Positions 25,364 through 63,203 of a DNA stretch of 64,000 nt are shown piece after piece. Under the pieces are notes generated by a model. That model made no database searches and was not told the origin of the DNA. It was given only the letters and a program-made list of their open reading frames with translations. The DNA is from Pelobates cultripes (Eukaryota; Chordata; Amphibia; Anura; Pelobatidae): NCBI GenBank assembly GCA_933207985.1, contig OW240921.1:92575537-92639536 (forward strand), in the 5' to 3' direction. A program made the translations under genes and the position numbers. Numbering within the stretch: position 1 is the stretch's first letter; each line of letters starts with the position of its first letter.

Positions 25364-28300
25364 TTTTTTTGGCAATCTTTATTTTATTGAGGCTTTGAGC
25401 ACATATGCACAACATGAGGGCGGTATAGACGTGTACATAATCCAGCACAGTTCAATACAGCCTAGTACCCCAGTACAAAATTTTTGCCGGTTAATTTTTC
25501 CTCCCTCCGCCTTGGTCTTAAACAGAACAACCAATGGTAAATGTAGGATCCAAACAAAGTAACATCTGCATAGTAACATTAATATAAAGGTCAGGCCCTT
25601 AATGGTCTGTCAAACCCGCTGGTTACTCTATACCGAACCCATTGCTGCCATACTTATGGCCTGTTCCAGAATTAACCCCGTTATAGAGCTCGGGATATAT
25701 GTCAGGGCTTCGGTCACTTATTCTACTCAACTATTGTCACAACCAAGAGCAATCTGTGTAGAGTCAAATGAAAGTCCATGTATTGTCCGGGGACAGTCCG
25801 TAGTGAGGAAGAGTCAGTAAAGCTCGAATTTTTTCTGTGCAGGGCGTCTCTCTCGAAGGAAAGGGTCGATGGTGAGAGGGGGGAGGAAAATGGGGAATCG
25901 GCCATGACTGGGCGGAGGAGAGGGGGGAAGAGGTCCCCCGGCAGCCCCCGGCCCCCTTCACAACCTCGGGTTTCCAGGAGGCCACTCACCTACTCGGCCC
26001 CTCGCACTCAGTGTCTTGCTGCTCTACGGCCATGTATTCAATCCAGGGCGCCCACAGCCGGGTGCATTTCTCCCCTGTCCCCCGCAGGTTCGCCGTGAGG
26101 CTCTCCATGGTGTAGATTTCTTCTACCGCTTCCATCCAGTCCGATAACGTTGGTATCACCTGCGTATTCCAGTGGGCCGGAATCAAGCTCTTGGCGGCAT
26201 TCAGGAGATGCCTCGTGAGAGACCTCTTGTACGCACCTAGGGGCATTGTGGTGTGGTGGAGGAGCATCTGCAGGGGCTGCATCGGCACGTCCAAGTCCAG
26301 TATTTCCCTGAGTTTGTCATGTATTAGCTGCCAGAAAACCGCTATGTGCGGACATGACCACCAGATATGGAGGTCCGTGCCTTCCGCTGTTTCGCATCTC
26401 CAGCAGCTGGGCGTGGGTCTCAGGCCCATACGGTACAGCCGGTAGGGCGTCCTGTACCATCCTGTCATAAATTTATAATTAACCTCTTGCAGTTTCGCGC
26501 TGGTAGCACTTTGATGAGCGAGGATGTGAATCTTCTCCCACGCGGAATCCGACAGAGTGTCTCCTGTAGTAAGTTCCCACGTAGCCTGGTATTGTGCCAG
26601 AGGATACCGGGTTGCGTCAAGTAACAAGGAGTACAACGTAGAGATGCCTCTTGGCAAGTGTGTCCCCGCGTCGCAAAGGGCCTCAAAGCGGGTTAGGTCC
26701 CTGTGTATTAGCTGCTTGCCCGGTAGGGAATGATAGTAGTGCCTTATTTGCTGATATCGGAAGCTGGTTATCCCCATTGGGGGTGCCTGGGAGACCAGGG
26801 CCTCAATGGGTTTCAAATTTCCTCCGGAGCACCATTCTCTCAGGTACAGTTTGTCCGGGTCACCGAACGCCACTACATCTCGTGTCGCCAATCCTCCCGC
26901 AATCTCAGGGTTGTAGACCACCGGGGTCAGCGGATTCGGGTTGGTCATAAAGCCCAGCTTATAGCGGACAGTGGCCCACACTTGTAGGGTTGCTCCTATG
27001 AGCGGGTGCATCCGAATGTCCGTCGACTGCATGGGTTTCAGGAGCCACGTAACCCACAGAATGCATCCCCTAGCCTCAACGCACTCAAGGTTGACCCACT
27101 GCTTTGCTGTGTCGGGTACGTGCCAGTCCACCACCCGGAGTAGATGCATAAGTAAGGAGCAAGGGCAAAGCCACACCACCCCTGCACTTAGGGCGGACCA
27201 ACAGTTCACGTCGGAGTCTAGGAGCACCCCCTGCCCATATAAAACGTCTAACAGCCGTGTCTAGGGTGTGGAAAAAGGTCACACCCTAGACACGGATGGG
27301 GATTGTCTGAAACAGGTACAGGAGGCGCGGCAGGAGGTTCATCTTAACAGCGTTTATTCTCCCGAACCAAGACACACAAGCCGCCCCCCAACTCTTCATA
27401 TCCGCTCCCAGCGTCTCCAGTAAAGGTAGGTAGTTTTCAGAGAAAAGCCTTGACAGGTCTTCTGTCAGCCATATGCCGAGATAACTTATTCGCCATGTAC
27501 ACCATCTGAAGGGGAAATTCGCCCTCAGTTGGGCCGACAGACCCGGGGGAAGGTCAAGGGGCAGAGCTTCCGATTTATCAGCATTCAACTTTAAATTGGA
27601 GAGTGCCCCATAAACTCGAAAGGCTTGAAGTAAATTCGGGAGTGTCACCGTTGGGTTTGCAATAAAAAATAGCAGATCGTCTGTGTAGGCAGCTACCTTG
27701 TGTTCTCTTCCCGATACGGTGAATCCCGTTATACCCCCGTCCTGTCTGACCGCCGCAAGAAACGGCTCGAGTGTAAGGGCAAACAGGAGGGGGACAGGGG
27801 ACACCCCTGTCTTGTTCCATTGCTAATCGAGAAGGAGGGGGATAAGGCTCCGTTTATCCGCAGGCAGGCCTTCGGAGTCGCATAGAGCGCCGCTATCCAG
27901 GCCTGGATATGCAGGCCAAAGCCCATCTCCCGAAGCGTTTCCCTCATGAACTGCCAATCCACCCGATCAAAAGCCTTCTCTGCGTCCGTGGAGAGCAGAA
28001 GGCCCCATCGGGCGGTAGTCTTGCTGATATGCATGAGGTTAAGAGCCCTGACCGTATTATCCTTTGCTTCTCATCCCGGGATGAACCCTGTCTGGTCTGG
28101 GTGTACCAGGTCCGGGATCACCCCACTAACCCTGAGTGCGAGGATCTTCGTGAATAATTTAAGGTCCGCATTGAGGAGGGAGATGGGCCTATACCCTGTG
28201 CATGACGTGGGGTCTTTTCCCTCCTTCGGCACCACCGCCACCGTAGCCATAAGGGTATCCTCTGGAAACCTCCCACCCTCCAGAATGGAGTTAAGGCTCA

Positions 28301-28864
28301 CTAGCAGCTCCGGCAGGAGGATCTCCCCAAAGGTCCGTAGGTATTGTACCGGGAACCCATCCGGTCCTGGGGCCTTGTTCGCTTTTGCGGCCTTAAGGGC
28401 ACCCGACAGCTCCTCTAAGGAAATGGGGGCGTCCAGCGACTCCGCCTGTGCTTGGGTAAGCCTCCGGGAGACGTATTGCTCCAGGTATTCCCTTATTCTG
28501 GTCATCTTCCATTGCGACTCCTCCATGCCAGTAGCTGCAGGTAGGTTATAGAGCTTAGAGTAAAACTTGAGGAACCTAGTCATGATCCCATCAGGGCATC
28601 GTATGGGGGGTGCCCCTGCAGTTTGCAGCATTGTGATTTGGAACTGTCTCCGCTTCTTTTGAATCATCCTAGCCAACATTCGCCCACATTTGTTTGAGTG
28701 CTCGTAATAGAATCTGTGGGACTTACGGCGCGTATATAGAAAATTCCGGGATAGGAGGTTTTTCAGGTCTCTTCTGGCTTCTAAGAGTGCGCAGTGGTTG
28801 TCGTCCGTCGCGGCCGATCTGTGTACCTGCTCGAGTAACGAAGCCCGGGCGTATAGTTCCTTTA

Positions 28865-30427
28865 CAGGGAGTGCAGAATTATTAGGCAAATGAGTATTTT
28901 GACCACATCATCCTCTTTATGCATGTTGTCTTACTCCAAGCTGTATAGGCTCGAAAGCCTACTACCAATTAAGCATATTAGGTGATGTGCATCTCTGTAA
29001 TGAGAAGGGGTGTGGTCTAATGACATTAACACCCTATATCAGGTGTGCATAATTATTAGGCAACTTCCTTTCCTTTGGCAAAATGGGTCAAAAGAAGGAC
29101 TTGACAGGCTCAGAAAAGTCAAAAATAGTGAGATATCTTGCAGAGGGATGCAGCACTCTTAAAATTGCAAAGCTTCTGAAGCGTGATCATCGAACAATCA
29201 AGCATTTCATTCAAAATAGTCAACAGGGTCGCAAGAAGCGTGTGGAAAAACCAAGGCGCAAAATAACTGCCCATGAACTGAGAAAAGTCAAGCGTGCAGC
29301 TGCCACGATGCCACTTGCCACCAGTTTGGCCATATTTCAGAGCTGCAACATCACTGGAGTGCCCAAAAGCACAAGGTGTGCAATACTCAGAGACATGGCC
29401 AAGGTAAGAAAGGCTGAAAGACGACCACCACTGAACAAGACACACAAGCTGAAACGTCAAGACTGGGCCAAGAAATATCTCAAGACTGATTTTTCTAAGG
29501 TTTTATGGACTAATGAAATGAGAGTGAGTCTTGATGGGCCAGATGGATGGGCCCGTGGCTGGATTGGTAAAGGGCAGAGAGCTCCAGTCCGACTCAGACG
29601 CCAGCAAGGTGGAGGTGGAGTACTGGTTTGGGCTGGTATCATCAAAGATGAGCTTGTGGGGCCTTTTCGGGTTGAGGATGGAGTCAAGCTCAACTCCCAG
29701 TCCTACTGCCAGTTCCTGGAAGACACCTTCTTCAAGCAGTGGTACAGGAAGAAGTCTGCATCCTTCAAGAAAAACATGATTTTCATGCAGGACAATGCTC
29801 CATCACACGCGTCCAAGTACTCCACAGCGTGGCTGGCAAGAAAGGGTATAAAAGAAGAAAATCTAATGACATGGCCTCCTTGTTCACCTGATCTGAACCC
29901 CATTGAGAACCTGTGGTCCATCATCAAATGTGAGATTTACAAGGAGGGAAAACAGTACACCTCTCTGAACAGTGTCTGGGAGGCTGTGGTTGCTGCTGCA
30001 CGCAATGTTGATGGTGAACAGATCAAAACACTGACAGAATCCATGGATGGCAGGCTTTTGAGTGTCCTTGCAAAGAAAGGTGGCTATATTGGTCACTGAT
30101 TTGTTTTTGTTTTGTTTTTGAATGTCAGAAATGTATATTTGTGAATGTTGAGAAGTTATATTGGTTTCACTGGTAATAATAAATAATTGAAATGGGTATA
30201 TATTTGTTTTTTGTTAAGTTGCCTAATAATTATGCACAGTAATAGTCACCTACACACACAGATATCCCCCTAACATAGCTATAACTAAAAACAAACTAAA
30301 AACTACTTCCAAAAATATTCAGCTTTGATATTATTGAGTTTTTTGGGTTCATTGAGAACATGGTTGTTGTTCAATAATAAAATTAATCCTCAAAAATACA
30401 ACTTGCCTAATAATTCTGCACTCCCTG
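28865..30427 (+). mobile_element. Complete Tc1-like transposon nested in the L1
   Basis: A 1563-bp element with perfect outer inverted repeats beginning CAGGGAGTGCAGAATTATTA, flanked by TA at 28863-28864 and 30428-30429. Inner copies of the repeat core occur at 29044-29064 and 30218-30237 (gtgcataattattaggcaac and its complement), about 180 bp inside each end, giving an IR/DR arrangement as in Sleeping Beauty-type elements. One transposase gene fills the interior. It inserted in the opposite orientation to the L1 ORF2 it disrupts. Confidence 0.95.
29083..30099 (+). CDS. Tc1-like transposase with first catalytic Asp changed to Asn
   Basis: An open frame of 338 aa, the usual length for the family, starting at ATG 29083 (MGQKKDLTGSEK). 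Residues about 1-110 form the paired-type helix-turn-helix DNA-binding region, with a basic stretch GRKKRVEKPRRK at 49-60. The DDE domain follows. The second Asp is D237 in IFMQDNAPSH and the Glu is E275 in SPDLNPIENLW. Thirty-seven residues separate them, fitting the DD37E group of Tc1-like elements. The first Asp is expected in the VLW(S/T)DE motif, but here it reads VLWTNE, with Asn at 144 (codon AAT). A single G-to-A change explains this. Cleavage and joining need all three acidic residues, so the protein is probably inactive but could still bind its ends. Confidence 0.93.
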   Translation: MGQKKDLTGSEKSKIVRYLAEGCSTLKIAKLLKRDHRTIKHFIQNSQQGRKKRVEKPRRKITAHELRKVKRAAATMPLATSLAIFQSCNITGVPKSTRCAILRDMAKVRKAERRPPLNKTHKLKRQDWAKKYLKTDFSKVLWTNEMRVSLDGPDGWARGWIGKGQRAPVRLRRQQGGGGVLVWAGIIKDELVGPFRVEDGVKLNSQSYCQFLEDTFFKQWYRKKSASFKKNMIFMQDNAPSHASKYSTAWLARKGIKEENLMTWPPCSPDLNPIENLWSIIKCEIYKEGKQYTSLNSVWEAVVAAARNVDGEQIKTLTESMDGRLLSVLAKKGGYIGH

Positions 30428-32299
30428 TAGTTTGTTGTTGTGCTCCTGTTTACGCTTGGTACAGATCTTGATGAAGTGGCCTCGTAGGACACATTTATTG
30501 GCTTCCCACCGAATCTGAGGCGAGGTATCCGCAGTGCGGTTTTCTGCAAAATATTGCTGCAGGACCTCCCGCGACTCAGCCTGTAGCAAGGGGTCCTCAA
30601 TCACCTGTGTATTCACTCTCCACTGTCTACAGAGGGGAGCGCATCGTGGCTAAGACCGGGGCGTGGTCCGACCAGATCGTCGTTTGTATATAACAGGATA
30701 GGAGAAGATGCAAGTATTCATGCGCTATCATGATGTAATCAAGGCGGCTATGTCCATGATGCACCTGTGAGTAGAACGTAAAGTCCCTGTCCTCTGGATG
30801 GAGAACCCTCCAGGAATTGGCCAGACCTGTTTCTCGCAATGCCTTCCCTGACCTGCATATACATAAGTCTGGGTGCGAGCTACGTCCTCTGGAGGTGTCG
30901 ATACGTGGATCCAGAGGGACATTGAAGTCCCCTGCTACTATGAGGAGTCCCTCTCTGAACTTGTCTAGTTGGCGGAGGGTCCCGGCTAGGAAGCGATATT
31001 GGCCCGTATTCGGAGCGTATAGCGATGCGAATGTGTATTTTTTTGTGGGCAATAGTACCTTTCAGGAATAAATAGCGACCCTCAGGATCCGCCTTTGTTT
31101 CAAGGCAGCAAAATGGTACCCCTGCTCTCTTGGCCCCCAGGTTATTGGCGAAGTATCACAGGGAATCGTGCATTGTGTAGAGCGGGGCTGTTCGCTCCCT
31201 TGAAATGGGTCTCCTGGAGGAATGCTATTGAGGCCCGAGAGGCCCAAAGGGACCGAAGCAGGTGCGACCTCCTTTCTGGGGCATTGAGTCCCCTGACGTT
31301 GTTGGTCCAAAGGCGTAGAGGGGCAGGGCAGAACCCCCCAGTCCGAGGGCCAGACATGACCGATAGGAAAGGGAAACTCGCGAAGGGGAGCCAGGAATGC
31401 GGGAGAAGGAGAGGAGGGGTGGGGCAGCTCAGTCGTAGGGGATCTGTCGGGAGGGAAGGGAGTCCCTGCCCTGAGAGGTCGTCCCTAGAGGGGAAAGTTG
31501 GACTTGACTGTAGGGAAAGAACCCGCTAGGTCTGAGTCCCCAACCCGTAGTTGACTCAGTCTCCTGCTGGCCTCCCGTCTAGTGTCCCCAGTCGATCCAA
31601 GGAGTTGTGCGCGGAACCCGAGCAAAAAGCCACGTGTCTGTTAATGAAGGTGGTAGATGTAGCTGTGTCAACTGTGTCCTATTCTACCGGCCCTGTAGCG
31701 AAGCTCTTAGTAAAGGTCGGTATGGGTACTGCTACTGCTAGTCTCCTTACTGCTCGTCTGCGGTAAGCCCAACCGTCACCCGGCCGTTTCCACGATCAGC
31801 CCCCTATTTAGTGAAGCCCTATACTGCCTCGGTGGTCGTCTCAGATCCTTTCCCCCGCGACCCCCCTCACTGACCACCCCAATATCCCCCAACATCACAT
31901 TCCAGCGGCCCAGATCCAACACCCCTCCAGGTCCCATCCAGCCTCCCAGAGCGACACAGTATTCACATGGCCACCCCAAGTCCTGGCTCCAAGCCCACTC
32001 CCCCCTCCCAAAACACAGTGAGGGGACTCAACGCTAGCTATTCCAACCGCAGGGGTCGTGGGTACGGGAGGGGAGGGGACAGGGAACAGGAGAGGAGGGA
32101 GGGAGAGGAAAGTCACGATCTTCATTGTCCCGGTCATCTCGCAGCTGGGGGGGGGGAGGGAAAGGGGGGGAGGAGGGGAGGTCCATTCAGCAGATCACGG
32201 GCCACCACCCCACCTAATTACTATTTCCCAATATGGCCATCCACGGTGCCCAACCCCAGTACCTTCCTGCAGAACATTCAGCTCCTGTGGGCAGTCCGC

Positions 32300-33382
32300 C
32301 TATTCCTTCGCACCTGCAGGGCCGCTTATCATTCGCGCGGGGTGCTCGCTCGCCCGCGGTTGCTCCAACTGTGGACTCTGCTCCCCTGATCTTCCTCTTG
32401 GTGCCAGCGGATTTTCCAATAGCCAATTATGGATGCGGATATGGGGAATGCGCAGGCTCCTCAGCGTCGGGGTGACATCGTCAGGCCAGCGAATATATAG
32501 CCATGAGTTCCCATGCCGGATCTGGAGACTGAAGGGGAACACCCAGCGGTAGGGTATATTCTTCTCCCGAAGGGCAGCGGTGATGGGCCAGAGCGCTCTC
32601 CTGGCATCCAGTGTCAGGCTAGACAGATCCTGGAACAGTGCCACCTCGGCACCCTGGAACATGAGCTTGTCGGTGCCCCTAGTAGCGGTCATCAGAGATT
32701 CCTTCAGCCTGTAAGCGTGCAGACAACACAGGACGTCCCTGGGTTTCCCATCCTGCCGTGGAGGGCCCAGGGCTCTGTGGATCCGGTCAAATTGGATGTC
32801 TTCCGGGCACTCGCGGCCCAGGATGTGTCTGTAGAGGGCCTGCGCTGTATCCTGCAGTGGTGCCACGTCCGGCTCCGGCAGCCCTCTAATCCATATATTC
32901 TGGTGACGGCTGCGGTTCTCCAGGTCCTCCACCTGTCGCCTCAGTGTCAGAAGGAGGTTCCCCTGCCATGTGGCGGCTATTTCTGCTGCCCTATGTTGGG
33001 AACGACTCTCCTGCGCCTCAGTCTCCAGGGCCTCCACCCTGGCCTCCACTGCAGAAAGGTCTGACCTGATTGCAGAGATCTCCTCCCTTACAGCTGTGCG
33101 AAATTCCTGCAATAGGCTGCTTATGTCTGACTTCGTGAGCATATGAGTGGAGATCCGAGTAAGCTCCTGGCGGATCAGGCACAGCGCGTCACTCCGGTCT
33201 CCATCTTCCGACGAGACACCCGCGCTTTCAGCCCCAGGGGATTCCGGCGCCATTTTAGCTGCCGGCTCAGCTCCTCTCAGGTCCGCCGGCGTGGTGACAA
33301 AATCATCTAACGTGCCGGTGTATCGGCGAGGGGAGACGGTCGCTGGTGTCCCGTGAGGCATAGCCCTCTTATTCCGGACCAT
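32300..33382 (-). CDS. L1-type ORF1 RNA-binding protein
   Basis: Open frame of 360 aa from an ATG at 33382 (MVRNKRAMPHGTP). The same frame is open upstream to at least 33439, but this ATG matches the usual L1 ORF1 start context. The middle (roughly residues 75-165) is a heptad-rich coiled coil with many Glu, Arg and Leu. It is followed by an RRM-like part with NIWIRGLPEP, FDRIHRALG and the L1 ORF1 C-terminal domain with ALREKNIPYRWVFPFSLQI. Such proteins trimerise, coat the element RNA and act as chaperones in retrotransposition. It is uninterrupted although ORF2 of the same element is badly broken. Function is inferred from architecture. Confidence 0.85.
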   Translation of the reverse strand: MVRNKRAMPHGTPATVSPRRYTGTLDDFVTTPADLRGAEPAAKMAPESPGAESAGVSSEDGDRSDALCLIRQELTRISTHMLTKSDISSLLQEFRTAVREEISAIRSDLSAVEARVEALETEAQESRSQHRAAEIAATWQGNLLLTLRRQVEDLENRSRHQNIWIRGLPEPDVAPLQDTAQALYRHILGRECPEDIQFDRIHRALGPPRQDGKPRDVLCCLHAYRLKESLMTATRGTDKLMFQGAEVALFQDLSSLTLDARRALWPITAALREKNIPYRWVFPFSLQIRHGNSWLYIRWPDDVTPTLRSLRIPHIRIHNWLLENPLAPRGRSGEQSPQLEQPRASEHPARMISGPAGAKE

Positions 33383-33537
33383 GGTACTGCGGCAGTTCAC
33401 GCTAATTATCGCCGGTATTAGGCCGAGGGCACAGAGCACAGGCTCTACATGTCTGCTCCCATGCTCGGTCCAGCCACGCCCCCCTAAAAAATTTTTTGTG
33501 TGGGTTTTTTTCTTGGTTTTTTTTACGACTTGTGTGA

Positions 33538-33984
33538 AGGACCACTATTGTGCCAGGAAAACATACTTGTTTTCCTGGCACTATAGTGCCTTGAGGGTGC
33601 CCCCACCCTCAGGGTCCCACTCCGGTGGAGCTGAAGGGGGAGGAAGGGGTTAATCCTTTACCTTTTTTTCAGCGCCGGGCTCCCTCGGTGCTGAGGACTC
33701 TCCTCCCTCTTCTGATGTCATCGGTTGAATGCGCATGCCCGCAAGCATTCAGCCAGTCCATAGGAAAGCATTCTCAAAGCTTTCCTATGGATGCTGGCGT
33801 CTTCTCACTGTGAAAATTACAGTGAGAAGCACAGAAGCGCCTCTAGCGGCTGTCAATGAGACAGCCACTAGAGGTTGGATCTCTGAAACTGCTATGTTTA
33901 AAGAAGAAAGGGTTAATCCTAGCTGGACCTGGCACCCAGACCACTTCATTAAGCTGAAATGGTCTGGGTGCCTATAGTGGTCCT
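33538..33984. mobile_element. T2/Kolobok-type MITE
   Basis: Ends are aggaccactattgtgccagg on the left and ctatagtggtcct on the right, the latter followed by TTAA at 33985-33988. The left flank is gtga rather than TTAA. Internal blocks gacagccactagaggttgg and cttcattaagctgaaatggt match the copies at 17998 and 56840. Confidence 0.75.
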
Positions 33985-45340: not shown

Positions 45341-45531
45341 CATGACATTTGCACTGTCGTTATTCGGCATGTGCTATAAACTTTAACATTAATAATACAC
45401 GGACACATTTAATACTGTTGGAGTATAACGTCCACAGCTTTATTAATATGAATAAATTAACATATTTAGGGTCATTGTCATAAATGACATTATTTACTAT
45501 CCCCCCGCACAATCCCCTGACAATGACCCTA
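45341..45531 (-). repeat. Ngaro B2 repeat (outer copy)
   Basis: Near-identical to 47947-48137, with about four differences in 191 bp. Both copies start catgacatttgcactgtcg. The copy is cut by the assembly gap at 45532, so its inner limit is unknown. Confidence 0.85.
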
Positions 45532-45631
45532 NNNNNNNNNNNNNNNNNNNNNNNNNNNNNNNNNNNNNNNNNNNNNNNNNNNNNNNNNNNNNNNNNNNNN
45601 NNNNNNNNNNNNNNNNNNNNNNNNNNNNNNN
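45532..45631. other. Assembly gap, 100 N
   Basis: One hundred N bases, a usual placeholder for a gap of unknown size. It lies at the edge of a repeated segment, where assemblies often break. Confidence 0.99.
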
Positions 45632-46002
45632 GAAAGCAGATTAAAGTGGGGAGATGGCTTCCTTATTATCCACTTTCACCACAATTTGTTCCATCTGAGA
45701 AAGCTATTGGCAGCCCAGAGCGAAGCATATCAATGCGGTTTATTCAGCTGGTCATTATACATGCAGATCCACGTTTCCCATTCAATTGAGCTGCCTGGGT
45801 CACGGTAAGGTACTTGTGCTAAGCCGCAACAAGTGGAATTAGACGGGTGGCTGTTGGGAACCTCTCCAGACATCTCTCACCTGTAAAAGAGTGATGAGAT
45901 TGTACCTACTGGATTGTAAGTCCACAGATGTGCAATTCTGCTTTAATTGAACACTGTGTTTGGTTGGAGTTAGCCTGGCTGGTACAAAAACTCAGCTGTG
46001 AT
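45632..46002. other. Unassigned spacer
   Basis: No match elsewhere in the window and no recognised gene. It lies between the gap and the minisatellite, and may be element spacer or foreign sequence joined by the gap. Confidence 0.4.
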
Positions 46003-47371
46003 CCCACACACTCAGCGTTATCACTCACTCCGTCCAATCACGCACTCAGCGCTTTCACTCACTCCGTCCATTCACGCACTCAGCGCTTTCACTCACTCCG
46101 TCCAATCACGCACTCAGCGCTTTCACTCACTCCGTCCAGTCACACATTCAGTACTATCACTCACTCCATCCAGTCACACACTCAGTACTATCACTCACTC
46201 CATCCAGTCACACACTCAGTATTATCACTCACTCCATCCAGTCACACACTCAGTACTATCACTCACTCCATCCAGTCACACACTCACCGCTATCACTCAC
46301 TCCATCCAGTCACACACTCAGTACTATCACTCACTCCACCCAGTCACACACTCAGCATTTTCACTCACTCCACTCAGTCACACACTCAGTACTATCACTC
46401 ACTCCACCCAGTCACACACTCAGCATTTTCACTCACTCCACCCAGTCACACACTCAATATTATCACTCACTCCATCCAGTCACAAACTCAGTACTATCAC
46501 TCACTCCATCCAGTCACACACTCAGTACTATCACTCATTCCACCCAGTCACACACTCAGCATTTTCACTCACTCTGTCCAGTCACACACTCAGCACTATC
46601 ACTCACTCCGTCCAGTCACACACTCTGTGTATTGGTCACTCACCCATCCAGTCACACACCAAGTACTCATCACCACTCCATCCAGTCAGCTACCACCTCA
46701 GCTATCACCTACCCATCCAGCTCACACACACCTCAGTACTAATACCACACCACCCAGTCAGACACCAGCACTATCACCTGTCCAGTCACACACACTCAGC
46801 ACCACACCACCACCTCAGTCACACACACCTCAATATTATCACTCACCCATCCAGTCACAAACTCAGTACTATCACTCACTCCACCCAGTCACACACTCAG
46901 CATTTTCACTCACTCTGTCCAGTCACACACTCAGCACTATCACTCACTCCGTCCAGTCACACACTCAGTATTATCACTCACTCCATCCAGTCACACACTC
47001 AGTACTATCACTCACTCCATCCAGTCACACACTCAGCACTATCACTCACTCTGTCCAGTCACACACTCAGCACTATCACTCACTCCGTCCAGTCACACAC
47101 TCAGTATTATCACTCACTCCATCCAGTCACAAACTCAGTACTATCACTCACTCCATCCAGTCACACACTCAGTACTATCACTCACTCCACCCAGTCACAC
47201 ACTCAGCACTATCACTCACTCTGTCCAGTCACACACTCAGCACTATCACTCACTCCGTCCAGTCACACACTCTGTGCTTTTACTCACTTCATTTAGTCAC
47301 ACACTCTGTGCTTTTACTCACTTCATTTAGTCACACACTCTGTTCTATTACTCACTTCATTTAGTCACACA
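46003..47371. repeat. 34-bp minisatellite
   Basis: About forty units of cactcactccatccagtcac followed by acactcagtactat, with alternatives ccgtcc, ccaccc and ctgtcc at one site and gcgctt, gcattt or gcacta at another. The middle (about 46620-46850) is degenerate. The unit length is not divisible by 3 and contains no stop in any forward frame, so plus-strand frames of over 400 aa stay open without implying a gene. Confidence 0.95.
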
Positions 47372-47394
47372 CTCATGGGGAACTCAGGTGAACC

Positions 47395-47946
47395 ATTCAC
47401 AATTCACAAGCCGTGGACATACCACGTGAATATTTTGCGATGCGGTCTGATCACACTGGCCTTTGGCCACTTATACTCCATGGTTACACAGGACTGTCCT
47501 ATTACTACACAAGCCTCTGGTTCTGGTCTGCCATTGATCATTTGTCCCATCAGAAGGCCCTCTTTGGGTGCCTGATATTTTCACAGACTCACAGGACTGT
47601 ACCAAAGATAACAGCTCTGGTTGTGAGGGGCCTCCATGAGCTGGTAGGAAGACCAAAAAGATCTCTGTGCTCGGCCTTAAGCCCCCTCACCTCCTTGAGG
47701 AAGTATTGTGGTCTGCACCAATTGGGTTAAGACCACTTTAAGAGCTCTGTCGTGTTCTCTTTCCACTTATTGATGACTCAGAGCACCACAACCAGAGCGC
47801 TGAGCCATTGACAGAGTGCCAGAACCACAAGGGAGCCATTAAAATGGTTTTGGTGCAGCCCACAATGCTTCCCCTCTGGGCCACCAAGAAAAGATGAGCA
47901 GGAGGGGGAAACACACTCAGCCACCACACACAAACACTTACAGAAA
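47395..47946 (-). repeat. Ngaro A2 repeat
   Basis: Identical to 54113-54668 except for one substitution (47566 versus 54284) and a 2-bp CA indel. It abuts the minisatellite on the left and the B1 repeat on the right. Open frames inside it occur in both copies and have no recognised content. Confidence 0.88.
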
Positions 47947-48137
47947 CATGACATTTGCACTGTCGTTATTCGGCATGTGCTATGAACTTTAACTTTAATA
48001 ATACACGGACACATTTAATACTGTTGGAGTATAACGTCCACAGCTTTATTAATATGAATAAATTAACATATTTAGGGTCATTGTCATAAATGACATTAAT
48101 TACTATCCCTCCGCACAATCCCCTGACAATGACCCTA
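47947..48137 (-). repeat. Ngaro B1 repeat (inner copy)
   Basis: Starts directly at the A2 boundary, sharing the dinucleotide ca, and matches 45341-45531. The B/A junction is what a circular intermediate of the element would contain. From 48138 to 48402 lies an untranslated 3' region. Confidence 0.85.
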
Positions 48138-48402
48138 CCACATGAACAATAATTAACATCAATTACCAATAAACTTGTAAACATCCGGCCTACCAACGAG
48201 GCCCCATATCATAATGATAACTGTAGGGGTGTACCCAGACACCCCTACACCCCCAGGTTCATCGCCACCGAAGAGCTAGAACCTACCAACCATGACACCG
48301 TCTGGCCTACTTCAGCCTAGGCCCTGGCCTGTATAGTTCCAATTCCCTGATAACTTCCAACTTAACCACGCCCTGTTCCGCCACAGCACTTGTCTTGACC
48401 CC

Positions 48403-48981
48403 TTAAGACCATGTGCGACCCCCACCACACTGAAACAGAGCTCGGGCTATGCCTTCCTGGAACCCCAAGTTCAGCAAGTCACACCCCACCTCCGACAGGT
48501 GTACTCCGTCCCTCCTAAAATAACCTGGCAACATGCCCTCCAATTCCCGATGCCTCACCACTACTCCCCCCATCCGATTAACAAAAACTGCCATAGTCCT
48601 ATTAATCTTCCCCCTGCATCGTGCCACCGCAGCAGGGTCCCTGGCGTGCCGCCATGTAAAACGAGGCACCATCTCGGACCACACCACCACCACGTCAGGG
48701 ACCAGCTCCCGCAGCCGATCCATGTCCCTCTTCATTCGCCGTAACAGTTCCCGTTGGGGAATCAGCCCTAAGTCATTCCCCCCACCGTGCACCACTACCA
48801 CATCCGGAACCGGACCCCTTGCCACTTTTCTAAATAAGACATTACTCAAGCTCTGCCAACTAAAACCTCGAAAACCAAACCAGGATAAGACCGCCCGTTC
48901 CAGAGGAAAGCCCAGCTGTGTTCCTTGTCTCCGAACTGCAGCCCTCTTCTGTGCCCAATAGACGAACAAGTGGCCCAACAA
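48403..48981 (-). pseudogene. Ngaro SGNH hydrolase with catalytic Ser lost
   Basis: About 192 aa are seen from the TTG at 48981, but the frame continues upstream (VWLLGHLFVYWA) with no ATG close by. A CAG acceptor-like sequence behind a pyrimidine tract (tttgtctcttttcag) lies just upstream, so the exon may be joined by splicing. SGNH blocks present are G39 (FRGFSW), N69 in HGGGND, and D158 with H161 in RDGVHLSE. The first block should be GHS, but here it is GHL, with codon TTG at 48969-48967. TCG to TTG is a CpG-type change. Without the Ser nucleophile the esterase should be inactive. The role in the element is unknown, though an esterase acting on lipid or acyl groups is the family expectation. 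Confidence 0.8.
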
Positions 48982-49060
48982 CCAAACTTTCCAACCTGAA
49001 AAGAGACAAAATTAGTTACACCGCAATGCCAGTGTCCCCCAGTCCCGGCCATTTGTCCCC

Positions 49061-50071
49061 TCAAAGTTCCACCATCCCGTCGGGCCTCACATACGAGCGA
49101 AACCGCACGGATTCCCACCTTCCAATCCTCTTGATCCGCTCATCACCAAAACCTAAGCGTGCCGCCTCCGTAGCCGCACCGATACGGAACGAATGCGACC
49201 CGAATTGCATGGGCTGCAGGCCCAGCTTCACTAAGCCTAAACGAAAAATCCTAATGAATTGAAACCGTGACAGCGCCGTGCCGTCAGCGTGCAAGAAAAA
49301 ACAACCGCTAACGTTAGGACGGATACCCAAGTACCCTGCTCCGCAGGCCACCGGGCACAACCCTGACCCCGGCAACTCGAATAGCACCACGGAGCAGCCT
49401 TTGCCGAAAACATCAGTTTTCGATCGGCCCAACCGAATCTGCACGCGATCACTCTTAACTTCCACATCACCGCGCTGCAAGCCACCAACTCCCGCCTTGT
49501 TGGTGCTAACCAACTCCCCGATCCGAAACGCCCCGAAAAACGCCCAGACAAACGCACCGGAAAAAAGGACCACCTCAAATGGCGAGGAACATAACCCCGG
49601 CAACGTTCCCACCAAACCTTGTAAGACCGCAAAAGACACCGGTCTCCTAACGTCCGTCGACGTCTTTCCCCTCCGAAAACCCCGAACCGCCTGCCGAACC
49701 AAGAAATGCTTTGTCAAATCTTCCCACCCTTGGAATTTAAACCAGAAAGCCAAGGCGGACATATGCCTGTCTACCATGGCCGGCGAAGCCCCCTTCGCAA
49801 ACAAACGGCACAACAACCATAGAAAGACATCCAACCTATGGCCCTCCGAAAGGTCCCCACCTACCTCCTCTACAGTTTCCTCCCATTCCTTCCAAACCTT
49901 AGCATAAGATGACCACGTGCTCGATGCCAAGGATTTCTTTATGTATTCCCCAAGCACGATGTCCGAGTCGCCACATCTCGTCTGGGCAGGCCTGCCCGTA
50001 TTCCCGCGCCTCCGGAGCCGCTCCCCGAAAACGATCCCACTGAAAACGAGAAAGCGCATCAGCCACCACAT
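49061..50071 (-). CDS. Ngaro tyrosine recombinase
   Basis: An open frame of 336 aa. The first codons overlap the end of the RT/RNase H frame, as is common in DIRS-like elements, so the true N terminus is uncertain. The N-terminal half (about residues 40-135) is the SAM-like core-binding domain (YIKKSLASSTWSSYAKVWKE). The catalytic half has R183 in FRIGEL, H293-x-x-R296 in SHSFRIGAA, W319 in GRWES and the nucleophile Y327 in FRSYVRP. All key residues are present. The enzyme would integrate a circular DNA copy by strand exchange, which explains the absence of a target duplication. It ends shortly after the Tyr. Confidence 0.9.
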   Translation of the reverse strand: MWWLMRFLVFSGIVFGERLRRRGNTGRPAQTRCGDSDIVLGEYIKKSLASSTWSSYAKVWKEWEETVEEVGGDLSEGHRLDVFLWLLCRLFAKGASPAMVDRHMSALAFWFKFQGWEDLTKHFLVRQAVRGFRRGKTSTDVRRPVSFAVLQGLVGTLPGLCSSPFEVVLFSGAFVWAFFGAFRIGELVSTNKAGVGGLQRGDVEVKSDRVQIRLGRSKTDVFGKGCSVVLFELPGSGLCPVACGAGYLGIRPNVSGCFFLHADGTALSRFQFIRIFRLGLVKLGLQPMQFGSHSFRIGAATEAARLGFGDERIKRIGRWESVRFRSYVRPDGMVEL

Positions 50072-51518
50072 TTGAGAATCCCGGAATGTGCCTAGCCCTG
50101 AATACTAAATTGGAAGACATGCAGAGGAGCACCAATTGCCACAGTAGGCATAAGACTGGAAGCGAAGATGCCGACAAACTGTTGATTGCCTGCACCACGG
50201 CCATATTGTCCGAATAAAACACTACTCGCTTGTTTGCTAATTCTGCTCCCCACAACGCTACCGCAACCACCACAGGAAAGAGTTCCAAAAATGCCAGATT
50301 GTTGATCAATGGGCTCGCCCTCCATGCCTCGGCACACCACCGCCCCGAAAAATACGCCCCGAACCCCACGCTGCCCGAAGCGTCCGTAAACAGCCCTACT
50401 GCTTCCGAAGACACCACTTGCTCCCGAAAAAAGGCCTTGCCATTGAAGTCCCTCAAAAAACGATCCCACACCTCTAAGTCCGCCTTCATGTCCGCGGAAA
50501 CCCTGATGTAGTGTGACGGCATCCGTATCCCGCTCATCGCCCGCGCCAACCGTCTACAGAAAACCCTCCCCATGGGTATGACCCTGCACGCAAAGTTCAG
50601 GCTCCCTGCCAGAGACTGTAATCCCCTCAGCGTCACCTTCCGTGCTCTCCCGATCGTGTGAACCAAATCCTTCAGTTTGTGCAATTTGTCCTGTGGTAAT
50701 CTATATTCCCCGATCTCCGAATCGATCTCCAAACCCAGAAAACTGAGACACGTGGCGGGTCCCACGGTCTTGTCCTCCACCAAAGGAACCCCCATCGTCT
50801 GCGCTACCCATTGGAACACCCGTAGTATCTGCTTGCACCGGTCTGAGCCTCGAGGGCCGACACATAAGAAGTCGTCCAGGTAGTGTACAACCGTGCCCCC
50901 GGCCGATTCCCGCCGCACTACCCATTCCAGAAAAGTGCTAAACTTCTCGAAATAGGCGCACGATATGGAACAACCCATCGGCAAGCACAGATCCACAAAG
51001 AAACCCCCCTCAAAACAACACCCCAAGAGGTGATGACATGACGGGTGTATGGGAAGCAGCCGGAACGCTGCCTCCACGTCCACCTTCGCCATCAGCGCTC
51101 CCCGCCCAGCTCTCCGTACCAACTCGACTGCCCTGTCGAATGATGTGTAAGATACTGAACAGAGTGCCGCGTCGATGTCATCATTCACCGATGTCCCTGT
51201 AGGATACGATAAGTGATGAATCAACCTGAATTTGCCAGCCTCTTTTTTGGGGACCACTCCAAGTGGGGATATCCGCAACTCCGCTAGAGGCGGGTACGGG
51301 AACGGCCCCGCCATCCTCCCTAAAAGGACCTCTTTAGCCAGCTTGTCCCGCACCACCTCCGGGCGTTCCCGCACCGATTTAAGATTGGCACAAACCGCCC
51401 CTGGTTCCTTGACCGTGAAGGGGATCACGAAGCCCTCCCTAAAACCCCGCCACAAGAACGCCGCATCCTCCTGGTTAGCGTATTGCCTTAGCCAAGGCAA
51501 CATCGCGCCTAACCTCAC
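49899..51518 (-). CDS. Ngaro reverse transcriptase/RNase H
   Basis: Frame of 539 aa; the first ATG is codon 6 (MLPWLRQYA), but homology to DIRS-type RT (ASPVRLGAMLPWLRQYA) extends upstream in the same frame, which overlaps the end of the gag frame. RT catalytic residues are D147 in AKVDVEAAFR and the YLDD box at 213-216. The DIRS-type RNase H follows, with D379 in FTDASG, E412 in LELFP, D437 in YSDN and D487 in VADALSRF. No stops or frameshifts are seen. It lies between ORF1 and the recombinase and overlaps both. The DNA adenine methyltransferase domain of classical DIRS elements is absent, which fits Ngaro. Confidence 0.92.
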   Translation of the reverse strand: MRLGAMLPWLRQYANQEDAAFLWRGFREGFVIPFTVKEPGAVCANLKSVRERPEVVRDKLAKEVLLGRMAGPFPYPPLAELRISPLGVVPKKEAGKFRLIHHLSYPTGTSVNDDIDAALCSVSYTSFDRAVELVRRAGRGALMAKVDVEAAFRLLPIHPSCHHLLGCCFEGGFFVDLCLPMGCSISCAYFEKFSTFLEWVVRRESAGGTVVHYLDDFLCVGPRGSDRCKQILRVFQWVAQTMGVPLVEDKTVGPATCLSFLGLEIDSEIGEYRLPQDKLHKLKDLVHTIGRARKVTLRGLQSLAGSLNFACRVIPMGRVFCRRLARAMSGIRMPSHYIRVSADMKADLEVWDRFLRDFNGKAFFREQVVSSEAVGLFTDASGSVGFGAYFSGRWCAEAWRASPLINNLAFLELFPVVVAVALWGAELANKRVVFYSDNMAVVQAINSLSASSLPVLCLLWQLVLLCMSSNLVFRARHIPGFSNVVADALSRFQWDRFRGAAPEAREYGQACPDEMWRLGHRAWGIHKEILGIEHVVILC

Positions 51519-53795
51519 TGGGGACGCCCCCAGTTGCAGCCGAGGTGGCCGCCACCCCTGCGGTTCCCCCCCTGCATTAAGCTTACCTTTCTTGAAGCAT
51601 CTGCTGGCGCCGTGATTCCCTCCGCAGCCCGAACACTCGTGCCTAAATCGGCATGAAGTACCCCACTTGCATTGACCCTAGTTGTATGTCCAGCATAGGC
51701 CCTTCTTTTGTCCCGCTGGCACAGCCATGCCTGAGGCTGTCCCAGCTGCCCCGAGAAAGGGCGCAGCCTTCTGCGCCATCATAATCCTCATCCATAGCGG
51801 CAGGTCCATTTGGTCCCACCGCATGGTAGGGTTGGCCGCCAAGCGTTGCCGAAACTGCTCATCATATTTCCACCATGCTAGGCCCCCATACGTCCGATAC
51901 GCATCGCCTATCCCATCCAAGTAGCAGAACAGTTGCGAACAGCTCCCCGGCCTCTTTTCCCCTATTACACTAGCCAGGATGCAGAATGCCCTCAGCCAAT
52001 TCCCAAAAGTCTTCGGTATCTTACGATACCTCCGCCTTTTTTCCTCTTCCTCCTTCTTGGCGTCCTTCTTATCCTCCTCCTTCAAGTCTTGGAATTCCTC
52101 CAAAGGGAGCAAGGAGAAAATTTCCATGAACTCCCCCTTCCAAATCTTTTCCTTGACCTCTAATTTCAGGTGACAACCTAGGGGGCCCGCAAAAGATACG
52201 TGTACGTTTTGACGTGCCGCGTCCGAAATGTCGCCACAACCGACTGCCGGCTCGGCCCCCCCATCCGCCGCACCGGACGCCACCACCGCTTCACTTGTCT
52301 CGCCACCGCTCGCAGGTTGGCCCACCGCCCCCAGTGCCTTAACCGCCGTGTCAGGGGACCATACTTTTCCGAACTGCAATGGTGATTCCCCCCTCCCTGA
52401 CCATGCCTCCAATAGTGTTTTTAAATAGCCCAATAACTGTTCGGAGTGTTGTGCAGATATGGACTCACCGTTGGAGACCCCGGCCGTGCCAGGCCCCGGG
52501 GATGCCGACCTTCCGTCCGCCCGTTCAGGCTCCGGAGCATCCGGTTGACGCCGACTCCCATCCGCCTGATCCCTCCTCAGGACCGTAGGGGTAGCGCTCC
52601 GCGACCTGTAAGGAGAAGACAACCTGGGTAGTCTGTACTGCTGGGACCCTACCCGTCCTTCCTCCCTACACTCCTTTCCGCAGTTCCAAGCTTCGCACTG
52701 CCTCACCGGCCTAACTTCCCTGCTCCTGGCGACCCGCTGCTGTCCTAGCGCACTGTCACCTGAGGACCCAGATGCGCTGCGCCGTCTCCGCCCCCGACCG
52801 TCCTTGGAAGCGGACCTCCTCCTCCCCACCCTGCAGCTGGCCCTGGAACCACTGCGCCTGCCATGTGAAGGACTCCTGTCCCTGCTCCACTGCCGATCGG
52901 CTGACCTCCTGCTGCTGCTGGGCCTGGCGCTACCGCTGCGCCGCTCCCGTCCGTAATCCCCCCTCTCCATGGTCCCGCTGCGGTGCCCCCCGTGAGAGCA
53001 GCCTGAGGGGCCCATCCTTCCACTGCTACTGCTCCTGACCTCCCTATCCCACGCTGTACCGTGTGGGTCACCCTTCTCCGCTGTACCTGGCCATCCGCTG
53101 GCCGCTGCGCCTGGTTCAGATGCCCCCCGCACCCCCTGGCAGCCCGCTGGAACCTCTGCCGCTCTCTGCCCGATCCTGTCGTCCTCCTGCCGCCCCTCAC
53201 CCCTATGCCTGGCACTATCACCCGTCCTGGCCACATCTAAGGCCGCCCGCGAGCTGATCCCGCTGACCAGGCCACCCCTGGGTAGCTGGGGGGCCGCCTG
53301 CGCAGGAGCATCCCGCGTCCCGCCCGCCCCCTGCCCCTCAGTGACCAGAGTGGACTCACCGGGACGCCTCAATGAAGTGCTGCCGATCACGTGCTCCTCC
53401 GCTCTCCCGGCCGCCATTCCCGCCGTGCTGGAGCCCTCCTCTGGGGTACTTGTGCTGCCCGCCGCCATCTTGAGTGGGGCGCGTTTTCCGGCAGGCCCAC
53501 GCTTTGCGGCCGTCCTCGCCTGACCGGCGCCGCGTCGCACAGGCGGCGCCGGCCGCTTTCCAGTGCTGTCCGACCCTCCTGCCTCCTGGCTGGGTGCCGA
53601 CGGGCTCCTCCGCCGCCGTGGAGCGGGCGCCATGCCCGGACTCAAACGCTGGGGCGGCCGTGCTCTTCGCGCCGTCCTGCGCTCCGCTGGTGCTGGAGGG
53701 GGAACTGCAGCCCCCAGTTGTTCATGCAGCCAGGCCAGCCCTCGGTCCTTCACTGCAGCTCTCACTCCGGCCAGGATCTCATCCAGGGACGCCAT
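51515..53795 (-). pseudogene. Ngaro gag-like ORF1 with one in-frame stop
   Basis: Starts at ATG 53795 (MASLDEILAGVRA). The first two thirds are rich in Arg, Ser, Gly and Pro. The last part, from HVSFAGPLGCHLKLEVKEKI onward, holds the conserved gag-like region with KTFGNWLRAFCILASVIG and RQRLAANPTMRWDQMDLPLW. A TAG at 51680-51678 ends the frame after CWTYN. The same frame continues without it into Cys/His clusters: C-x7-C-x5-C-x3-H, then C-x2-C-x3-H-x4-C (CSGCGGNHGASRC), running to TGA at 51515. The stop therefore lies inside the first zinc finger, and CAG to TAG would explain it. The frame is also open upstream of the ATG through the NOTUM piece to 54188. Confidence 0.82.
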
Positions 53796-53801
53796 GGACC
53801 T

Positions 53802-54107
53802 GCGGGTGATTATTTCGTGGGACAGACAAGCTGGAGCGAAACTTGCCCCAACATCTTTCAAAGTGTTCCTCAACTCTCGACCCAAATTCTGGATATAGAG
53901 CCACTGACTCTCCTGCACAGGTTGTCCACTCAGATGAACATTATCCACAGTCAGCTGGGCTTCGTCAAACAGCCACTGGACCACAAAGACTGGACTTCTA
54001 AGAGTTGGGTACATCTTGTATCCAAAGAAGCAGTTCCATTCTTCACCTTCTTTGAACTGCTGCTTGCACCTTTCAGGGACAGCTCCATTCCAATATCTGA
54101 TTCCTCT
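53802..54107 (-). pseudogene. notum: NOTUM exon fragment fused to the Ngaro ORF1 frame
   Basis: 102 codons read RGIRYWNGAVPERC, GEEWNCFFGYKMYPTLR, VFVVQWLFDEAQLTVDNVHL, IQNLGRELRNTLKDV and CLSHEIITR. This is the C-terminal third of the NOTUM hydrolase domain, with no stop or frameshift. NOTUM is a secreted carboxylesterase that removes palmitoleate from Wnt proteins. The Asp in WLFDEA and the His in LSHEI are 49 residues apart, the spacing of the Asp and His of the NOTUM catalytic triad. The Ser block is absent. The upstream edge is an acceptor-like gaattccag, four bases from the end of the A1 repeat. The downstream edge continues in frame through cgcaggtcc into the gag ATG. No other NOTUM exon was seen in the window. 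It is either a host exon captured by the element or a host locus hit by the element. Confidence 0.85.
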
Positions 54108-54112
54108 CTGGA

Positions 54113-54668
54113 ATTCACAATTCACAAGCCGTGGACATACCACGTGAATATTTTGCGATGCGGTCTGATCACACTGGCCTTTGGCCACTTATACTCCATG
54201 GTTACACAGGACTGTCCTATTACTACACAAGCCTCTGGTTCTGGTCTGCCATTGATCATTTGTCCCATCAGAAGGCCCTCTTTGGATGCCTGATATTTTC
54301 ACAGACTCACAGGACTGTACCAAAGATAACAGCTCTGGTTGTGAGGGGCCTCCATGAGCTGGTAGGAAGACCAAAAAGATCTCTGTGCTCGGCCTTAAGC
54401 CCCCTCACCTCCTTGAGGAAGTATTGTGGTCTGCACCAATTGGGTTAAGACCACTTTAAGAGCTCTGTCGTGTTCTCTTTCCACTTATTGATGACTCAGA
54501 GCACCACAACCAGAGCGCTGAGCCATTGACAGAGTGCCAGAACCACAAGGGAGCCATTAAAATGGTTTTGGTGCAGCCCACAATGCTTCCCCTCTGGGCC
54601 ACCAAGAAAAGATGAGCAGGAGGGGGAAACACACACTCAGCCACCACACACAAACACTTACAGAAACA
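54113..54668 (-). repeat. Ngaro A1 repeat (5' end of the element)
   Basis: Direct copy of 47395-47946, over 99 percent identical. Its outer end is cttacagaaaca, after which the sequence changes to gaaccctgtg. Its inner end lies next to the NOTUM fragment. Confidence 0.85.
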
Positions 54669-55639
54669 GAACCCTGTGTTTTAGATGGAGCCCCAGTCTG
54701 GCACACTGCCTAGGGCCCTGGGCAACCTTAACCCAGCTCTAGGGTAGTGCCAATGTCTAAATTCCATCTGTCTTTTTAAGGTGGGTGTAGACCGGATTAT
54801 CCAGAAAGCTAATTGGCAATATTATATTGATATTAACCCTGCCTAACATGTGACAGCTATGTTAATATATATGGAGTGGAAGAAGAAGAGATATGAATAT
54901 TTAAATAGTTTTGGGCCGAGTGCTATAGTTTCATATGAAACTGTTCTGGATTAGAAGGGAAGTCTCTCTTTAAAAAATGATGACATCGCCGCTTGGTGTG
55001 TGGTGGCTCAGGCTGGTTAGGGGGGTTGACAGAGCTGCTTAAAAAACATTATTCTTTTCATGATAACCCAGTCAGCATTTATCTGGGAGAAAAGGAGCTG
55101 TTATATGACATGGCCACGTGACAACTAATCACAGAAATGAGAGTGTCAGTTCTCACTGTGAGAATTGCAGCGATTTGAAAAACGAATTGCAAGAAAAAAT
55201 AAAAAATGGGCTTAAATAGCCTGTGTGTAAATGTTCTCCAATGCAGATGTAGTCACAGCTCGGCTATTGCGACCTAAATCTTGCAATACGTTTTTTTTTT
55301 TTTTTTAAGGTCACTAAAGAATGGGTGAGGTGTGTGTTTGTACGGTGGTTATTCTGTGATGCACGTTATTTTTTCTTATTTGTTAATTTGTGCTGGAAAA
55401 TTCACACAATTATTTTAAAATGTATCCAATATTTTTGAAATGAGAGTAATCCTAATTTAGAACACATTTAGAACAAAAATTTTAAATTTTAAACATTTAA
55501 CATAAAAAGTTTAAAGATACTAGGACTATTATTACTGTGGAGCTCTGTTATACATTCAGACACACCTACAATATGGAGCTACTAGCAAAGAGGGACATTG
55601 GGATAAAAAGGGGGAATAAAAAACATTTCAGCTGCCATG
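54669..55639. other. Non-coding stretch
   Basis: No gene is recognised. It begins with gccccagtctggcacactgc, which resembles repeat ends in this genome, and contains a T run at about 55291-55308. No candidate first exon of the downstream gene was found. Confidence 0.5.
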
Positions 55640-55647
55640 TTGTCAAC

Positions 55648-55932
55648 TAGTGATGTCGCGAATTTTTTGCGAATGGTCCGCGAACGGTTCGCCGCGGTTC
55701 ATGGCGAACCGTTCGCGGCGGTCTCCAGTCTGCTGACACTTCCCGGCCAATATGCAGCAGACCCTCCCTCCCAGACCCTCCCACCTCCTGGACAGCATCC
55801 ATATTGAAGGATATGGATGCTGTCCAGGAGGTGGGAGGGTCTGGGAGGGAGGGTCTGCTGCATATTGGCCGGGATCTGTCAGCTGACTGGAGTCCGCCGC
55901 GAACCGTTTGCGAAAAATTTGCAACATCACTA
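55648..55932. mobile_element. Palindromic hAT-type MITE
   Basis: A 285-bp element with ends TAGTGATGTCGCGAA and its near complement, flanked by a perfect 8-bp direct repeat TTGTCAAC (55640-55647 and 55933-55940). Almost the whole element is one inverted repeat with arms of over 100 bp that meet at about 55805 (ggacagcatccatattgaag). An 8-bp duplication is the hAT signature. The one open frame across it is only the palindrome. Confidence 0.93.
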
Positions 55933-56603
55933 TTGTCAACGGAGGAATATATAGGAACATGCCATTGGTTTTTATAGTAACATCGTGATTATTCTACTTT
56001 CAGAACTTTGCTCCATGTTTGCTGTTTATACATAACCCTCATGTGTTCTCTCTGAGAAACAAGTTATCTCGAATAATAAAACACAATGCAGTGAGCAGAG
56101 AGAATTGAGGACAGGCTGCTGAGAGATAACAGATCACGTCTGGGTAACTGAATTCCCAGCTATTGTTCAATCACAACTGCTATTTTTCTCCGCTAGCCAA
56201 CAGTGACCAATCAGACTAGGCCATGTGTTCCTTGTACAGTTTTAAGACTACAGCTCCCACAAGCTCCAGCCAGCCTCCAGGGTTCGGAATCGCAGTTCTC
56301 AAAGTGGAGAGATGTTACTTATCCTAGATCTTTAGCACTGTGCAGGGGAATGGAAAATCTGCAAAGCGGTATGACCTGTCTAGATGAGTGAACTACTGCA
56401 GAATTAAAATGACAAATACATATGTGACAGAAGTAATGATTTTTTTTCTGTCTGCAGAAAAGTGGTGGGTTTCATTACCATCCTAGAAGATGGATAGTAA
56501 ATATAAGCTGAGCTAACACTTTGTCTTTCTCCCTCTTCTCCCCTCTCTTTTCCTCTTTTCCTTTCTCCCCATCTATCTCCTCTCGTTCTTACTTTCTCCA
56601 TAA

Positions 56604-63203
<6,600 letters not shown>

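Follow-up and report, generated by a model that had tools for sequence, protein, structure and literature searches.

The window analysed here is a stretch of 64,000 nucleotides from Pelobates cultripes (C10:92575537-92639536). At 47949-54112 it holds an insert in which a spliced piece of the host gene NOTUM, a Wnt antagonist, runs, on the minus strand, into the gag-like frame of a retrotransposon that appears to be Ngaro-like. The insert is flanked by two copies of a host sequence, X. The features are as follows, in window coordinates:

47395-47948, host target sequence X, left copy, 554 bp, 99.46% identical to the right copy.
47949-48178, minus strand, terminal B repeat of the element, single here, ending in GCAAATGTCA; the inner boundary is approximate.
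48403-49011, minus strand, SGNH/GDSL hydrolase frame, 202 aa between stops (PF13472, 35.1 bits, cut-off 32.9).
49061-50104, minus strand, tyrosine recombinase-like (YR-like) frame, 347 aa between stops, named from a weak PF00589 match and its position after the reverse transcriptase (RT).
49899-51677, minus strand, RT/RNase H frame, 592 aa between stops (PF00078, 39.6 bits, cut-off 29.6).
51678-53795, minus strand, gag-like ORF1, 705 aa from MASLDEI, its first 60 residues related to at least 150 places in the genome.
53796-53799, minus strand, GTCC, the first bases of the element after its predicted 3' splice site, from comparison of the join with other copies.
53800-53847, minus strand, NOTUM exon C, 48 nt, whole, up to the splice donor (C5:12036432-12036479, donor flank GTAAGTGT).
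53848-53995, minus strand, NOTUM exon B, 148 nt, whole (C5:12036566-12036713).
53996-54096, minus strand, NOTUM exon A, 101 nt, whole (C5:12040677-12040777).
54097-54112, minus strand, last 16 nt of NOTUM exon Z (C5:12041015-12041030, donor flank GTACGCAA).
54113-54668, host target sequence X, right copy, 556 bp, a host repeat that the first-pass annotation had called the A1 repeat of the element.

Over 836 aa (54188-51678, minus strand) the reading frame stays free of stops, leading from the NOTUM-coding stretch through CGCAGGTCC into MASLDEI, and the continuity that had been read from the letters is thereby confirmed. The join lies at 53800|53799, where the 3' end of exon C (CCGCAG) is followed by the G of GTCCATGGCG, with the gag ATG at 53795. 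The gag start, GTCCATGG, is met by exon C exactly at the splice donor point of that exon. The first in-frame ATGs of the frame are at 54014, inside exon A, and at 53795, the gag ATG itself; ahead of the NOTUM piece none was found in the 54188-51678 frame.

The NOTUM part, 313 nt at 54112-53800 of the minus strand, is composed of the last 16 nt of exon Z followed by exons A, B and C (101, 148 and 48 nt). Comparison with the gene on C5 shows that the three introns between these exons are all absent at the exact splice sites, which in the gene read Z|GTACGCAA, ATTAG|A|GTAAGTCA, CACAG|B|GTAAGTGT and TATAG|C|GTAAGTGT; exon C ends there at a CAG|GTAAGT donor. The stretch had been described as a single NOTUM exon of 306 bp without stops. 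Stop-free it is, but it is 313 nt long, and the alignment to four exons on C5 rules out a single exon. Between the piece and the C5 gene 310 of the 313 bases are identical, and all three differences are synonymous, which fits an allelic source. Selection on the NOTUM-gag fusion is possible, although three changes cannot show it. Against human NOTUM chains the translated piece gives an E value of 9e-61 over residues 2-104, and it also matches the Pfam family PAE above the cut-off. Of the catalytic triad the piece retains Asp and His and lacks Ser, presumably in line with the stretch that is covered, if the triad positions are as we take them to be. As the piece comprises about 103 residues and lacks the protein start, NOTUM activity of the fusion would not be expected.

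The intact gene, with its introns, lies on C5, so that the DNA flanking the insert is not the real notum locus. Against its exon boundaries, 53800 falls at a donor and 54112 inside exon Z. A further NOTUM coding exon was located at C5:12029759-12029460 with an approximate query sequence, which puts the intron after exon C (roughly C5:12029760-12036431) at about 6.7 kb. The NOTUM family is also matched by a locus on C7. The latter gave no DNA match to 53750-54250 (40 of 86 candidates scored), and the C5 gene is therefore the likely parent. Exons B and C are also present on C2 (C2:144616985-144619631), together with intron sequence and at 99.66% identity, adjoining an N gap; this copy reflects either a duplication of part of the gene or a contig that was placed wrongly.

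When window bases 53750-54250 were searched at the DNA level against the 3.09-Gb genome, with 40 of the 86 candidates scored, the window itself gave the single match over the full length, and 41 others were partial. The partial matches comprise query bases 1-54, i.e. the gag start, at many places, the NOTUM part in three blocks on C5 and in two on C2, and the right flank, which recurs from 47395 onward in the window and at C10:22349009. The joined segment is thus present in the window, and no second locus with the NOTUM-gag join was found among the scored candidates. Since the join was found at one locus, NOTUM does not seem to be a stable part of the element: the proposal that host sequence forms a 5' extension of a Ngaro-like gag holds for this copy, while the idea of a fixed exon carried by the element does not.

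The element itself is seen directly as a set of open frames that closes with a canonical B end. Its terminus, GCAAATGTCA, occurs within 2 mismatches at 192 places in the genome. Split direct repeats in the order A1 ... B1-A2-B2 can be read in relatives of the window copy. In one of these (L110) the B terminus is present twice, 666 bp apart, around A2; the A1 start of other copies reads TGAAGCCCATGG or TGAAGCCC, and the B1 end is followed by the same A start. The distance from the gag ATG to the B end is 5847 nt in the window copy, as compared to 5860 nt to B1 and 6526 nt to B2 in the copy at C5:119070070. From these distances the window copy has one B and lacks A1 and A2; in addition, the leader of another copy has no match anywhere in the window. 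RVT_1 is matched above its cut-off, RNase H (PF13456, RVT_3) below it at 18.3 bits, and PF00589 only weakly (E 0.02, 15.1 bits against a cut-off of 27.1). A methyltransferase domain is a feature of DIRS-like elements; a scan of four frames at E 0.01 matched none, a weak test of absence. By its repeats, RT and SGNH frame the family would be classed as Ngaro-like, the recombinase match being weak. No RNA family reaches its gathering score in 47300-54800. A second element B end, 97.9% identical to 47947-48137 and with a different flank, lies at 45342-45531, where it is cut by an N gap (45532-45631). Elsewhere in the window, a stop-free 348-aa frame at 29053-30099 resembles a Tc1/mariner-type transposase by eye and is enclosed by LINE-like frames on the minus strand (25986-33544).

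In order for exon C to be spliced to gag, the element should contain a splice acceptor at the join point, and the sequence of its other copies agrees with this prediction. A total of 87 gag starts was gathered from two pattern searches (84 from the first and 3 more among the 83 of the second), counted place by place, two of them (L049 and L050) being 1.2 kb apart. All 87 have GCAG before the join point, and in 86 this is directly preceded by 17-20 pyrimidines in 20. The remaining one is the window copy, with 11 pyrimidines in 20, in what is NOTUM exon sequence. A pyrimidine tract followed by CAG is what we take to be a typical vertebrate 3' splice site. The pattern extends to diverged copies from a protein search (150 of 1727 candidates scored): all 20 that were picked have 16-20 pyrimidines in 20 and a CAG 0-4 nt before the gag ATG, with the proviso that they were chosen by hand from rows of 68-83% identity, not at random, and that several are near-identical to each other. 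The letters of the tract differ among copies, e.g. CCCCCCTTTTTTCTTTGTTTCCCTGCAG and TTCTTCTCCTTTCTTTTTCAG. In the close set there is no excess of pyrimidine-keeping changes within the tract (12:8, versus 12:11 elsewhere in the leader), so the case for constraint rests on the diverged copies, which themselves share descent. A spliced native leader was found in 0 of the 87 gag starts, a point against the main reading given below, and any use of the acceptor during the normal cycle of the element would be putative. A candidate native donor, GAA|GTAAGG, is predicted at leader position 22 of the one copy inspected. On the antisense strand, a donor-like word CAG|GTRAG is present in the leaders (e.g. 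L046, L112-L130) of 84 of 86 close copies and 18 of the 20 picked diverged ones; it may let antisense transcripts splice into upstream host DNA.

At the insertion site, X occurs once, with both flanks, in an inverted empty-site relative on the same contig (L012, C10:22339453-22351427). This relative is homologous to 45632-62242, and the homology stops on the left at the only N gap of the window and on the right at 62242, which points to either a segmental duplication or a misplaced haplotype. Identity is 99.35-99.49% in the two cleanest blocks, 96.1% in the block beside the insert and about 90% over a 34-bp minisatellite (46005-47375, 40.3 copies). The minisatellite and a 208-bp near-palindrome with 91% arms (55704-55911) are also found in the relative. 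The sequence from 54113 is host DNA that flanks the insert on both sides and is single at C10:22.35 Mb, so it is not the element's A1, and the earlier view that the NOTUM piece adjoins that repeat falls. A single base and a 2-base gap separate the two X copies in the window, and at seven positions these are alike where the relative differs; both therefore arose after the two loci parted.

The manner of insertion is unusual. DIRS1-like elements insert without target-site duplication (PMC3266345), as would be usual for a tyrosine-recombinase element, and one ordinary copy of the present family (L032/L110) shares no flank word above 9 nt. The window insert, in contrast, is flanked by a repeat of 554/556 bp. 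Insertions of the L1 type come with poly(A) and a short target repeat. Here poly(A) is absent at the element end of the insert, whose 3' end is GCAAATGTCA, and given also the length of the repeat, an L1-type processed pseudogene was rejected. As neither the tyrosine-recombinase nor the L1 route fits, the insert was probably formed when a staggered break took up a linear cDNA. Instead of such capture, the site may have undergone repair within an older element. We know of no insertion route for which a target repeat of 554 bp would be typical, and this counts against the main reading given below.

Very probably, judging from the sequence, the insert derives by reverse transcription from a host-element RNA whose splicing involved a predicted element copy in the NOTUM intron following exon C. 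Transcription would have started at the NOTUM promoter and proceeded into the sense-oriented element in this intron. The spliceosome would then have joined the exon C donor to the acceptor of the element, which took the place of the next NOTUM exon. The resulting NOTUM-gag-RT-YR RNA would have served as template for reverse transcription, probably with the enzyme of an element, up to a point inside exon Z, where the cDNA copy ends. Without A1 in such an RNA, the cDNA would not be closed into the usual circle of the element and was likely captured at a staggered chromosome break; capture of this kind would leave a long target repeat. Directly visible are the exon structure with its precise limits, the acceptor sequence of the other copies and the host repeat around the insert, and three exact intron removals combined with an exact exon-end join are not produced by chance. 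The host piece ends at the 3' end of an exon, as expected for exon trapping (exon C, CCGCAG|GTAAGTGT in the gene), and exon trapping by a tyrosine-recombinase retrotransposon is the likely process. Neither the predicted source copy nor spread of the chimera was found: 60 kb of C5 around NOTUM contain no element sequence, and among the 40 of 86 candidates scored the join was seen at a single locus. The partial copy on C2 was considered as a source locus with an intronic element and rejected, 30 kb there containing no element sequence and no leader.

The absence of a source element in these 60 kb of C5 is also what a template switch would predict. Here, the RT copying an element RNA would have jumped at the gag start, via GCAG, onto spliced NOTUM mRNA. 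GCAG is common to the end of exon C and the element's acceptor, so a jump would leave the identical sequence, and jumps at microsimilarities have been described for retrocopies made by LTR retrotransposons (PMC5408686). However, the jump would have to land precisely on an exon end and on the acceptor at once. A comparison of 512 nt of NOTUM cDNA with 766 nt of the element's 5' region yields 1338 maximal 4-nt words in common, and judged by the printed exon ends the GCAG of the join is the single one that lies at both. This puts splicing well ahead of an RT jump, which we consider unlikely. The exact splice boundaries and the missing source element would both be accounted for if a NOTUM pre-mRNA had been trans-spliced to an element RNA from elsewhere, with no element ever in NOTUM and the later steps unchanged. 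Trans-splicing of such kind is, as far as we are aware, rare in vertebrates and is held to be very improbable here, even though it cannot be told apart at this locus from splicing within one transcript.

Two further readings depend on the assembly and on the history of the family. With an N gap 2.3 kb to the left of the insert, an element end cut by that gap and a 99.4% relative on the same contig, an assembly artefact has to be weighed. The insert contains no N, though, both of its ends lie in gap-free sequence and the gap is 8.2 kb from the join; an assembly error would moreover not excise three introns at their exact splice sites, and the target is unbroken in the empty-site relative, as expected. 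We regard an artefact as scarcely credible. It is harder still to credit the first-pass proposal of a mobile Ngaro subfamily that carries NOTUM as a regular 5' exon. The open element frames of the window copy make its onward movement conceivable, but a single locus shows the join among the 40 of 86 candidates scored, the native leader precedes 86 of the 87 gag starts, and the window copy itself is devoid of A1 and A2.

Reverse-transcribed splicing of an RNA from NOTUM into the element, as preferred above, has its closest parallel in the exon trapping of the human SVA_F1 (MAST2 exon 1) and chimpanzee pt_SVA_D6 (STK40 exon 1) families, where likewise the 3' end of a host exon was joined to the 5' part of the element, splicing being the explanation given, and then retrotransposed (PMC6139936). 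SVA elements, however, are non-autonomous and L1-driven, and these families have spread (94 and 84 copies; PMC6139936), whereas the window insert is Ngaro-like with its own RT and YR-like frames, contains four exon pieces, lacks poly(A) and was found as one copy. In maize Bs1 and other chimeric retrocopies of LTR retrotransposons, a piece of host mRNA is also found in retroelement cDNA, but these are explained by template switching (PMC5408686), while the join in the window coincides with an exon end and a splice acceptor. Host exons spliced to the ORF1 (gag) of a tyrosine-recombinase retrotransposon are known from the LAP2alpha domain of TMPO and from ZNF451 (PMC4495291). The LAP2alpha fusion is a resident, selected gene derived from a DIRS1-like element, for which a carried acceptor had been inferred (PMC4495291); in the present case the element is Ngaro-like, the product was copied to a new place and the acceptor sequence can be read in 86 of 87 copies. 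By analogy, the window insert can be viewed as the mobile counterpart of the DIRS1-type ORF1 in TMPO and ZNF451. The architecture agrees with that described for Xenopus Ngaro-like elements (A1 ... B1-A2-B2, RT and YR frames, in amphibians SGNH after YR; PMC9210276), an account that treats neither a gag splice acceptor nor exon capture. PMC3266345 makes no mention of splicing, introns, exons, capture or transduction. Among the open-access literature matches listed, taken by title and the start of the abstract, no earlier account of host-exon capture by Ngaro or DIRS elements was found.

A broader reading is offered tentatively and seems doubtful at present: the Ngaro clade could possess a conserved gene-trap, consisting of a strong 3' splice site at gag and an antisense donor (CAG|GTRAG) in the leader, with Gag made as a fusion to whichever host gene an element enters and host exons repeatedly mobilised as cDNA. 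A like acceptor would then explain how a DIRS-type ORF1 gave rise to LAP2alpha. If splicing into the element is the correct explanation, the insert would be a physical record of a splice event between host exons and gag of a tyrosine-recombinase retrotransposon. The acceptor sequence would be visible in the element family itself, where before it had been inferred for the DIRS1-type origin of LAP2alpha (PMC4495291). The origin of such fusion proteins would become testable by RNA-seq and minigenes, many copies in the genome keeping the site, and exon trapping, as known from SVA, would extend to another class of retroelements.
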